A DNA stretch of 64,000 bases, taken from NCBI RefSeq assembly GCF_026155325.1, contig NZ_JAPFPW010000001.1, positions 1 through 64,000 of the forward strand, in the 5' to 3' direction. Position numbers and translations under genes: made by a program. Source of the stretch: Desulfobotulus pelophilus (GTDB taxonomy: Bacteria; Desulfobacterota; Desulfobacteria; Desulfobacterales; ASO4-4). Shown one piece after another: positions 1-4,645 of this stretch. Below the pieces are notes generated by a model. The model was not told the origin of the DNA. It made no database searches and was given only the letters and a program-made list of their open reading frames with translations. Position 1 is the stretch's first letter, and each line of letters opens with the position of its first letter.

Positions 1-1738
1 GCCTTCCGTAAAGGATACCCCCGCCCCTCCGGAAGATGCCTTTGATACGGGCAGTGACACCCTGAGTCAGGATGACATAGAAGCTCTTCTTTCCGGCGGT
101 GGCGGCAAGCCTTCCGTAAAGGATACCCCTGCCCCTCCGGAAGATGCCTTTGAGGCGGGTAGTAACACCCTGAGTCAGGATGACATTGAGGCTCTGCTTG
201 CCGGCGGCGGCGACAAACCTTCCGTAAAGGATACCCCCGCCCCTCCGGAAGATGCCTTTGAGGCGGGTAGTAACACCCTGAGTCAGGATGACATTGAGGC
301 TCTGCTTGCCGGTGGTGGAGAGGCATCTTCTCCTGTTTCTCAGGGTGACAACTCTCTTTCCGCAGACGGGGACAACCCGGATTTTGTGGGTCAGAATGAA
401 ATAGATGCCCTTCTATCGGACAGGGGGGAAGGAGCCCCTTCCTCCGTTTCGCCTTCGGAGGATTTTGATGGCGGAGAAGGCGGTCTCGGTGTTTCGCAGG
501 ATGAAATTGATCGTCTGCTGGGAATCACACCAGAGATAGCACCGAAAGGCCGTTCGGATTCGCTGTCAGAAAAAAGTGAGAGCCTGCCTCCCTATGAAAC
601 GGAGACAGGCTCTAATCTCATCAGTCAGGCCTATCTGGACGCCTTGCTGGAAGCAGAAAAAAGGGAGCAGGAAAAAGGGCCTGAGCCTCCTCCTGCCACG
701 GAACCAGTGTCGAAAAAGGAAAAACCGCAGGGCCTTGAGCCGTCGGAAGATGATTTTATTCTTCAGGATGATATCGACAAGCTGCTGGCGGGCGTGGACA
801 AGGAGGCAACGGGAGGCGACAGTCTGGAAAGCGACCCCCTGATTTCCCGTGAAGACATTGAAAATCTGCTGGAAGATGTGGAAACTGGCGGTGATGGTGA
901 TGGGGGAGGAGGTGAAGATGTTCTCGACCTCATTTCCCAGCAGGATCTGGAAAAACTCATGCAGGATGTGGGGGTGGAGGAAAAGGCCCCAGAGCGTGAA
1001 AATGTTGTAGAGCCGGTATTTGAGGAAGGTAAGGAAGTTCTCAGTCAGGAGGATCTGGATGCTCTTTTGCAGGATGTGGAGGGGTCTTCCGATGCCGATA
1101 TTTCTATGGATTTTTCGTTTCCGGGGAAATCCATAGAAGAAAGTGCTCCCTCTTCAGAGCCGGTCAAGCCTGCTCCTGCCGGATCCCTGCCGCCGGAGGA
1201 AGATCGTGTTGTTCTCATGCCTCCGGATGAGAACAACAGAAACAAGGGAAAAGCGGGGAAGAAATGGATCATGGCGTTGGCTGCCGGGCTTGCGGCCCTT
1301 ATAATAGCCGGTGGAGGGGGTGTGTGGCTGTTGAGATCCCCGGAGCTCCCTACCCCCGTTGGACCCATGGCAGAAGCACCGGTTCCCGTTGCTGCGGAGC
1401 AGGGCGAGGTGCGGGATGTCTTGTCTCCCCTTCCTTCCTTTATCTCCCTCGCCGTGCCTGGTTTTCTGGTGCCATCCTCTCCGGGAGTTGCCCATGCCGC
1501 TTATCTGGTGGCGGATCTGTCCGTTGATCTTGCTCCGGAAGCAGCCCGGCGTTTTGAAGCAGAGCCTGCCCGTTTCCGGGATGTGGTGTATCAATCATTG
1601 AAGAGGATTGTGGATGCATCCGCTAAAACAGAAATTACGGAAGAAAATTTGCAGAATGAACTGATGGATGCCCTCAATCAATCTTTTCGGGAGAGGGTGG
1701 TTCTGAGGGTGGTATTTACCCATTTTTCCATAGGCTGA
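1..1738 (+). CDS. FliL-like membrane protein with an array of FliM-type CheY-binding motifs (5' end missing)
   Basis: The frame is open from the first codon at position 2, so the gene starts outside the window. The acidic, low-complexity cytoplasmic part holds at least ten copies of a motif like [LIV]SQ(D/E)(E/D)I(D/E)xLL, starting at nt 62, 170, 278, 386, 491, 620, 758, 842, 932 and 1040. This is the motif at the FliM N-terminus that binds phospho-CheY. A basic stretch and one hydrophobic helix follow (about nt 1265-1336), then an outward domain ending in RVVLRVVFTHFSIG, which resembles the FliL C-terminus. FliL is an inner-membrane protein at the stator/motor interface. I infer a motor-associated protein that could gather CheY or imitate FliM. 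Neighbours downstream are flagellar. The GTG at 386 lies inside the repeat and is not a real start. The FliL assignment is by eye. Confidence 0.7.
   Translation, partial: PSVKDTPAPPEDAFDTGSDTLSQDDIEALLSGGGGKPSVKDTPAPPEDAFEAGSNTLSQDDIEALLAGGGDKPSVKDTPAPPEDAFEAGSNTLSQDDIEALLAGGGEASSPVSQGDNSLSADGDNPDFVGQNEIDALLSDRGEGAPSSVSPSEDFDGGEGGLGVSQDEIDRLLGITPEIAPKGRSDSLSEKSESLPPYETETGSNLISQAYLDALLEAEKREQEKGPEPPPATEPVSKKEKPQGLEPSEDDFILQDDIDKLLAGVDKEATGGDSLESDPLISREDIENLLEDVETGGDGDGGGGEDVLDLISQQDLEKLMQDVGVEEKAPERENVVEPVFEEGKEVLSQEDLDALLQDVEGSSDADISMDFSFPGKSIEESAPSSEPVKPAPAGSLPPEEDRVVLMPPDENNRNKGKAGKKWIMALAAGLAALIIAGGGGVWLLRSPELPTPVGPMAEAPVPVAAEQGEVRDVLSPLPSFISLAVPGFLVPSSPGVAHAAYLVADLSVDLAPEAARRFEAEPARFRDVVYQSLKRIVDASAKTEITEENLQNELMDALNQSFRERVVLRVVFTHFSIG
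2..319 (+). repeat. Three near-identical 108-bp tandem repeats in the coding sequence
   Basis: Units begin at 2, 110 and 218, each opening with CCTTCCGTAAAGGATACC. They encode 36 residues with one SQDDIEALL motif. The second and third units differ by only a few bases. The fourth motif, at 386, keeps the 108-bp register but is strongly diverged. Further copies may lie upstream of the window. Confidence 0.95.
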
Positions 1739-1813
1739 TCCGGCGGACAACCCCGCATGGTTCCGGTAGAAGGAAGCGGCAGCTCCCAGAATCCGGAATT
1801 ACAAGGAGGCAGC

Positions 1814-2122
1814 ATGACAACCATTCCCAATCTTAATATGGTGATTCAGCAGGGCGGGGCTGTGCGTGAGGCCCATAATCTCAAAGCTCAGCCCTATGAC
1901 AGTGCACAGGCGGCTCTGGCTGTTCAGCCGGAGCGGGAAGCCCGCCGTCGGGAAGAGGTGCAGCTTAGTGAAGAAGCTTCGCTGCGAGCCGGCAAAGACG
2001 GGAAGGACAGCAGGCGGGATGAGCAGGAGTCTTCCGGTAAAAAGAACCCGGAAGAACAGAAAAAAAAACAGGACGTGCAGCATTCCGATGGTGTGGGAAG
2101 TCTGTTTACTACCCGCGCGTGA
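1814..2122 (+). CDS. Small hydrophilic protein of unknown function in a flagellar operon
   Basis: The product is 102 residues. The start was chosen because ATG 1814 follows an ideal AAGGAGG at 1803-1809; an open frame extends further upstream without such a site. The N-terminus (MTTIPNLNMVIQQGG) is mildly hydrophobic. The rest is highly charged, rich in Glu, Lys, Arg and Gln, probably disordered or helical. I see no signal peptide or membrane helix and recognise no family. It lies 75 bp after the FliL-like gene and 22 bp before the DUF2802-like gene, so it is very likely co-transcribed with flagellar genes. Confidence 0.7.
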   Translation: MTTIPNLNMVIQQGGAVREAHNLKAQPYDSAQAALAVQPEREARRREEVQLSEEASLRAGKDGKDSRRDEQESSGKKNPEEQKKKQDVQHSDGVGSLFTTRA

Positions 2123-2144: not shown

Positions 2145-2618
2145 GTGGATACGCTTCTGTACTGGATTGCCATACCCATGGCAGCGAATATTCTGCTGAT
2201 TTTTTTTGTGGTCCTGAGTCTCAGGCGGTTGGCGAAACGGCTGGAGGAGAATGCGGTACATTCGGCTGTCAATCGTGTTCTGGCAACCCTCCGTCCTATG
2301 GTCAAGGAAGCGCAGGAGCTTTCCGTGGCCTTTGATGGTCAGCTGCGGGAAAAACAGAGGTTGATTCATAGCCTGAATGAAAACCTTGATCGTCGGATTA
2401 CGGCCCTGAACCTTCTTGTGAACCGTACGGAAGTAAGGTTGCAATCTCAAGAGAATCATCGTCATATACCGGAATCGGCAGATGTTCAGGAGACGGTTCT
2501 GGAGCTGGCCTCCCAGGGAAGAAGTGTGGAGCATATTGCCCGTGAGCTGGATGTGAGTCCTGGTGAGGTAAGCCTGATTCTTGACCTGAAACGTAAGCTG
2601 GATGCCCTTTCCGGCTAG
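2145..2618 (+). CDS. Membrane-anchored DUF2802/DUF6115-like protein
   Basis: The product is 157 residues from a GTG start (2145) with a weak ribosome-binding site. Residues about 5-25 form one membrane helix. A charged, coiled-coil-prone stretch follows (about 28-100). The C-terminus (about 115-150) has a compact helix-turn-helix-like pattern, ASQGRSVEHIARELDVSPGEV, as in DUF2802/DUF6115 proteins commonly found beside flagellar genes. Their molecular role is not established. The gene is in line with the FliK-like gene 8 bp downstream. The family assignment rests on pattern and context. Confidence 0.65.
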   Translation: MDTLLYWIAIPMAANILLIFFVVLSLRRLAKRLEENAVHSAVNRVLATLRPMVKEAQELSVAFDGQLREKQRLIHSLNENLDRRITALNLLVNRTEVRLQSQENHRHIPESADVQETVLELASQGRSVEHIARELDVSPGEVSLILDLKRKLDALSG

Positions 2619-4354: not shown

Positions 4355-4645
4355 ATGGATAAAAAATCACAATCCGGAAAGGAGTCCCGTCGCAAGGCTG
4401 TGGCTTTGCGGTATAAAGCTCTGGAGGACGCAGCCCCCAAGGTTCTGGCCAAGGGCAGAGGCAGCCTTGCGGAGAGAATTCTGGCACTGGCGGAAGAGTA
4501 CGGCATCCCCGTAAAGGAGGACAGGGATCTGGTGACTCTCTTGGAAAAGCTGGATGTGGGCAGAGAGATTCCGCCGGATCTGTATCAGGTTGTGGCAGAG
4601 CTCCTTGCCTTTGTTTACCGTACGGGAAACAATCACCGTAAATAA
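4355..4645 (+). CDS. Stand-alone FlhB C-terminal domain homologue (FlhX type)
   Basis: The product is 96 residues, the size of the cytoplasmic export-switch domain of FlhB/YscU without its membrane part. Visible family features are the AVALRYKALEDAAPKVLAKG segment, which corresponds to the part of FlhB after the cleavage site, then AEEYGIPVKED and the C-terminal helix IPPDLYQVVAELLAFVY. Such solo domains are called FlhX or FlhB2 and can partly replace the FlhB C-terminus. FlhB itself is not in the window. The ribosome-binding site is weak. Confidence 0.85.
   Translation: MDKKSQSGKESRRKAVALRYKALEDAAPKVLAKGRGSLAERILALAEEYGIPVKEDRDLVTLLEKLDVGREIPPDLYQVVAELLAFVYRTGNNHRK

Follow-up and report, generated by a model that had tools for sequence, protein, structure and literature searches.

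CheY acts at the C-ring of the flagellar motor, and the usual FliL protein has a short cytoplasmic N-terminus. CheY is a known ligand of motifs of the FliM N-terminal type (PMC9126983, PMC6946799), the FliM motif being given as LSQxEIDxLL (PMC5677366), and in Caulobacter FliM the I-D pair was required both for CheY-driven reversals and for the binding of CleA (PMC5677366). FlhG is described as a protein that also docks on the FliM N-terminus (reviewed in PMC12826062), and the FliL of other motors as forming decameric rings or arcs around the stators (PMC9195833, PMC12222027). No earlier description of a FliL bearing an array of such motifs appeared among the top literature matches listed, most subscription papers lying outside the coverage of that search.

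The DNA analysed here, referred to as the window, is the stretch of 64,000 nucleotides that begins at base 1 of contig C1 in the draft genome of Desulfobotulus pelophilus (3.66 Mb, 86 contigs). Because the window starts with the first base of the contig, the gene found at positions 2–1738 of the forward strand runs off the contig on its 5′ side, and the 3′ part that remains encodes 578 amino acids. The product is a paralogue of FliL, hereafter FliL2. The contig break falls inside a tandem repeat (positions 1–318; 108-bp unit, 2.9 copies, 92% matches) that carries one motif per unit, and the first part of the gene was found at the end of contig C7, where 181 amino acids starting with MAEKDGKND include four motif-like stretches, two of which were recognised under the loose pattern. 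The ends of C1 and C7 have 11 bases in common, inside the 108-bp repeat, so that further repeats may have been lost between the two contigs; taken together, both parts hold at least 12 loose motifs, or at least 14 when two looser ones are counted.

The first-pass annotation had reported, in this one frame, ten motifs of the form [LIV]SQxx[IL][DE]xLL, a single membrane helix and an outward FliL-like domain. Ten motifs were indeed recovered under the loose pattern, but only six of them fit the exact form. In order along the forward strand, these motifs are LSQDDIEALL three times (62–91, 170–199 and 278–307), VGQNEIDALL (386–415), VSQDEIDRLL (491–520), ISQAYLDALL (620–649), ILQDDIDKLL (758–787), ISREDIENLL (842–871), ISQQDLEKLM (932–961) and LSQEDLDALL (1040–1069), in which the first four are spaced by 36 residues and the fourth, seventh, eighth and ninth depart from the exact form. 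Between the array and the membrane helix, a second conserved short stretch, DRVVLMPPDE (1202–1231, forward strand), was observed. In A1, an alignment of 14 relatives that was used as a profile, the L of this stretch is invariant over the 14 rows and the V is kept in at least 90%, the family pattern being about D-x-V-I-L-E(-x-P-D-E). A tail stretch that is perhaps its counterpart, Q-K-V-E-L-D-L-D-D-A-P-F-L, was also seen in the FliL of family f106 (loci L212 and L213).

The second stretch is followed by the basic sequence RNKGKAGKK (1238–1264, forward strand), which, by the positive-inside rule for membrane topology, points to a cytoplasmic location of the side that carries the array. The single membrane helix comes next (1268–1324, forward strand), recognised as a hydropathy peak at residues 423–441 and placed at residues 423–438 in the AF2 model, and it precedes the FliL domain (residues 497–576; 1490–1729, forward strand), which has a stomatin/SPFH-like fold and would be periplasmic. 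When the ORF was modelled with AF2 (7 rows), confidence in the tail was low, mostly below 50 and up to 77 at the motifs; every one of the ten motifs formed a short helix, and no further helix was predicted, at low confidence, ahead of the membrane helix. The observation of the array, the membrane helix and the FliL domain in the same frame was confirmed, and this architecture is certain.

The membership of FliL2 in the FliL family is well supported. The window protein reached 25.8 bits against the Pfam model PF03748 (FliL), over the cut-off of 24.6, so the C-terminus that had been proposed as FliL-like does behave as such in profile searches; nine of the 14 rows of A1, the window among them, matched the Pfam FliL model at E 0.01. 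When the A1 profile was compared with PDB chains, the FliL structures 9hmf (1.9e-9) and 7sgn (3.8e-5) were retrieved. The AF2 model of a C-terminal construct (eight rows) showed block means of 83–94 pLDDT from construct residue 81 onward. With the FliL-domain model, Foldseek placed FliL 7sgn and 6ahq on top, with a best E of only 1.4e-3, and VIA-align gave Z 10.6 for 7sgn (rmsd 3.4 over 95 residues) and Z 10.6 for 6ahq, with prohibitin (Z 9.9) and other SPFH proteins near behind FliL. Another FliL-domain match, of 31.5 bits, was noticed on other contig (G000:C2:354222-354527), inside a 290-aa lipoprotein-like ORF. A FliM fusion or a truncated FliM was ruled out, since neither the FliM middle domain nor FliMN_C (SpoA) is present in FliL2; the FliM of the same genome is a separate gene with both domains.

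An origin of the array from chance or composition was likewise ruled out by shuffles and by background ORFs. In 5,000 shuffles of the first 420 residues, loose motifs occurred with a mean of 0.0012 and a maximum of 1, versus the 10 observed. For background, nine stretches of the same genome supplied 54,350 residues of other ORFs, in which a slightly widened pattern of the exact type had no match. These background ORFs were of at least 100 aa and chosen mechanically, a procedure that dropped the C7 start of FliL2 in favour of a longer frame overlapping it. A search of the own genome with an array query found FliL2 alone as an array gene, although with low sensitivity, since the C7 start was missed. 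Among viral sequences, 11 stretches fit a pattern, and none of them was a relative.

Relatives were found in 14 of 58 genomes by a first protein search, and the A1 profile matched 123 of the 291 genomes of the sulfate-reducing order Desulfobacterales, ordinary short FliL included. From the better-scoring matches, 75 FliL2 genes of 75 genomes, the window's own excluded, were examined, FliL2 being recognised by its place after fliA or, in shorter loci, by its long frame. The architecture described in the first pass recurred in these related genomes: 54 of the 75 genes presented 2–17 loose motifs (median 6, 371 in total), a proportion that is no unbiased frequency because the genes were drawn from better-scoring matches, while two had one motif (one of them cut by a contig end) and 19 had none, which indicates that the array is dispensable for the basic role of FliL2. 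The arrays span 16 family labels, and in the two other genomes of the window's genus the FliL2 gene is unbroken, with 17 motifs in one and 14 in the other. In all 54 array genes, every motif lies upstream of the membrane helix and none downstream, within tails of about 120–770 residues preceding the helix, on its N-terminal and probably cytoplasmic side, in agreement with the earlier proposal of a multi-motif tail. One array gene is split over two frames (G231), and another array lies partly in a separate upstream frame (G195). Tails with tandem repeats of other kinds, SGNELDE, ITGHELDE and ISQKELDDLI, were seen in the FliL2 of L099, L101 and L102 (families f4 and f22), and these repeats may have arisen from the array by degeneration or conversion.

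The genes that follow FliL2 are also recurrent. In the window, they encode a 107-aa protein with no Pfam match over cut-off (1799–2122, forward strand), a relative of which comes directly behind FliL2 in 24 of 46 loci, and a DUF6115-like protein, with DUF2802 below cut-off (2145–2618, forward strand); in all 46 loci, a DUF2802/DUF6115-like gene occupies one of the two positions immediately downstream of FliL2. Farther along the window, a stand-alone FlhB C-terminal homologue of 96 aa, FlhX-like, was recognised at 4355–4645 (Pfam Bac_export_2), and an FlhX-like gene also occurs downstream of FliL2 in many loci. In seven loci, where both were in view, a short FliL additional to FliL2 was found upstream, near fliM; in the own genome, the 175-aa protein encoded before fliM matched neither Pfam nor NCBIfam models at E 0.01 and is a "FliL" by position only. 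A same-genus genome carries a second FliL2 fragment of 118 aa, with no array (L022; G002 contig C2, 1–9000), which lies near the contig end, with the 107-aa neighbour present and one in-frame stop.

The motif consensus was derived from 333 aligned instances in 54 array ORFs, the window included and two of the ORFs coming from one gene, and was found to be [ILV]SQDDIDxLL. The columns +5 and +6, both of which are constrained by the search pattern itself, showed I at 0.87 and D at 0.83, and at the pattern-free positions before this I-D pair, D reached 0.68 and then 0.87 (+4). After the core, N/S/Q and then G/A were found, and the core was distinct against flanks that were mainly, and merely, acidic. 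The literature form of the FliM motif, LSQxEIDxLL, had no match in the 54 array ORFs, [LIV]SQxEIDxLL had five, one of them in the window, and [LIV][ST]QxDIDxLL had 159, in 47 of the 54. Positions 2–25 of the NCBIfam FliY profile matched one window repeat at E 4.5e-5, and positions 1–22 of the NCBIfam FliM profile matched the window protein weakly (E 0.67), both far under the whole-protein cut-off; the N-terminus of the FliY profile matched a repeat in three of the five array proteins scanned (window, L020 and L029).

FliM itself was found in 29 of the 30 genomes queried, and the 28 readable N-termini (from 27 array genomes and the single-motif G079) all presented L-[ST]-Q-x-E-V-D-[SN]-L-L-x-G, with E-V-D at +4 to +6. 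Thus, the FliM of the same genomes has E and V at +4 and +5, versus D (0.87) and I (0.87) in the array motifs, and the two are related but distinct consensus sequences within the same genomes. This mismatch weakens the simple claim that FliL2 copies the CheY site of FliM, although the I-D pair required in Caulobacter is common in the arrays. LSQxEIDxLL is not strictly kept by FliM here either, V replacing I in 28 of 28.

The preferred reading, held tentatively and with a probability of about 0.45, is that FliL2 bears a multivalent tail that docks CheY, probably as CheY-P, or a receiver similar to CheY, at the stator ring. The periplasmic domain would most likely join a FliL ring or arc around the stator units, and, since FliL surrounds the stators in this way elsewhere, the tail would, given similar behaviour of FliL2, lie close to them. 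The acidic, disordered cytoplasmic tail would present its array of short amphipathic helices of the FliM-N type, on which the receiver may be held multivalently, and the docked signal might be concentrated or buffered beside the C-ring or might act on the stators. We infer in this way the membrane topology of FliL2, its ring membership, its partner and its effect. In favour of CheY docking, we counted the FliL domain, the FliY profile match, the arrays in 54 of 75 genes, the I-D pair, the motif helices of the model, and the presence in the own genome of five CheA-type matches and of a CheY, which adjoins CheX and has the CheY homologue 3gwg as best solved match (3.7e-29). Against it were counted the consensus mismatch, the 19 of 75 FliL2 without motif, the multi-motif stretches in proteins without FliL domain, and the relation to CheA. 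CheA was present in 43 of 46 array genomes versus 17 of 19 array-less genomes, with no association between array and CheA in this set, and one array genome that is 97% complete (G173) has no CheA; G229 (two motifs) is counted here as an array genome, whereas G035 and G079 (one motif each), G065, G160 and G232, all five with CheA, are omitted. The interpretation offered in the first pass, of an inner-membrane protein linked to the stators and displaying CheY-binding sites, is in this manner partly supported, and the proposed role of CheY is plausible.

It is unlikely, although several observations would fit, that the motifs dock some other partner that accepts the FliM N-terminus, such as a Cle-type c-di-GMP-binding CheY-like protein or the receiver of a non-flagellar chemosensory system. 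The array consensus is unlike the FliM of the same genomes, several che clusters are found in the own genome, and Cle proteins use the same FliM motif (PMC5677366). Moreover, arrays of a similar kind were observed in proteins devoid of a FliL domain, one of them a DUF3999 protein. A six-motif query found arrays in six of the 394 genomes of the phylum, the own genome and G069 included, the four others being outside the order and having proteins without FliL; this query misses known in-order arrays (e.g., G022) and so undercounts, and the true spread is probably larger. The proteins comprise one of 644 aa (L126, G648) that combines a membrane helix with Ig/cadherin-like domains, one of 129 aa that is almost nothing but four motifs (L127, G383), two array proteins of 430 and 405 aa (L128 and L129, in G307 and G403), whose flanking genes we take to be valS- and nfo-like, and the DUF3999 protein (L130, G069), which has a membrane helix and whose motifs are degenerate. 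Their motifs include LGQDDLDALL, LSQDDLNELL and LDQSDIDSLL, and no FliL domain was detected by Pfam in L126–L130. The FliL domain and the operon place of FliL2 nevertheless both indicate the flagellar motor.

FlhG as the partner is a serious alternative, even if its probability is low. The FliL2 gene is placed within the flagellar operon, in a position that presumably matches the place of cheY-cheZ in the polar-flagella operons of gammaproteobacteria, and flhG lies two genes upstream: the order flhG-fliA-FliL2 was found in 46 of the 47 loci that showed both flhG and FliL2, a count that leaves out four repeat loci of the same contigs, and in the exception (L072) no fliA was recognised. FlhG is a MinD-like ATPase controlling how many flagella are built and where. 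It binds the FliM N-terminus (PMC12826062), and an array docking it could allow FliL2 to sequester FlhG or to report finished, stator-bearing motors to it. However, the same gene order accompanies array-less FliL2 (e.g., L080 and L089) and is therefore no pointer to the array, and such a role offers no obvious reason for as many as 17 copies.

It is also rather improbable that the tail serves chiefly as an acidic spacer or entropic brush, or that it tethers stators to one another by weak self-association, with helices that would be no CheY sites. The array tails are strongly acidic, with a mean net charge of −0.30 per residue, the motif number varies within the genus (17 vs 14), and the array-less FliL2 of the order mostly have, by eye, acidic extensions without motif. 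In other orders of the phylum, FliL profile matches were found in 146 genomes, from which the 25 best loci and 20 with long frames were taken (two repeats, leaving 43 distinct FliL genes); none of the 43 genes examined had an array, one had a single loose motif, and most of 18 long FliL proteins of these orders presented, also by eye, an acidic extension without motif. Since many long FliL of other orders have the acidic extension and lack the array, the acidic tail is more widespread than the array. A spacer would hardly account for S/T-Q-D-D-I-D-x-L-L being kept in 333 instances while the stretches between them diverge. Finally, an assembly artefact, to which the contig end inside the repeat could point, has a negligible probability as the cause of the array and was rejected given the unbroken 17- and 14-motif genes of two same-genus genomes and the arrays in 54 of 75 FliL2, and it was accepted as the cause of the truncation of the gene.

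A motor contains some tens of FliM subunits. If FliL2 docks CheY or a similar receiver at the stator ring, the numbers reported for Campylobacter (4 FliL per stator, 17 stators), multiplied by 14 motifs per FliL2, would give about 950 sites, an antenna far above the FliM subunit number. The array suggests that the motors of Desulfobacterales may hold a signalling protein at the stators. The fuller proposal, that in this order the chemotaxis signal is received at the stator ring besides the switch, with CheY-P being stored or concentrated there or tuning stator recruitment and torque, is rather doubtful. In any of these forms, chemotaxis, FlhG or c-di-GMP signalling would gain a physical route to the torque generator from a conserved FliL paralogue that carries as many as 17 FliM-like docking helices. 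The array is also an instance of short motifs having been added, within one order, to a FliL with an acidic tail that is more widespread in the phylum.

Compared with described systems, FliL2 resembles FliL in having one membrane helix followed by a stomatin/SPFH-like domain and in being encoded in the flagellar operon, its closest solved folds being H. pylori FliL and the FliL of 6ahq/6ahp; it differs in that the membrane helix lies near the C-terminus, behind a tail with 2–17 motifs. With the N-terminal motif of FliM and FliY (EIDAL, LSQxEIDxLL), it shares the core [ILV]-S/T-Q-x-x-I-D-x-L-L and the short helix of the model, whereas its motifs occur in many copies, in a membrane protein devoid of FliM/FliN domains, with D and not E before I-D, and the FliM of the organism retains its own single motif. 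The interaction between FlhG and the FliM N-terminus (PMC12826062) offers the case of another docking protein on that site, whose gene lies near FliL2, although it controls the placement and number of flagella and involves one motif per FliM. The Cle proteins of Caulobacter, CheY-like and c-di-GMP-dependent, are receivers that use the FliM N-terminal motif to act on the motor (PMC5677366); there the ligand has been multiplied, whereas in FliL2 it is the docking site that has been multiplied.
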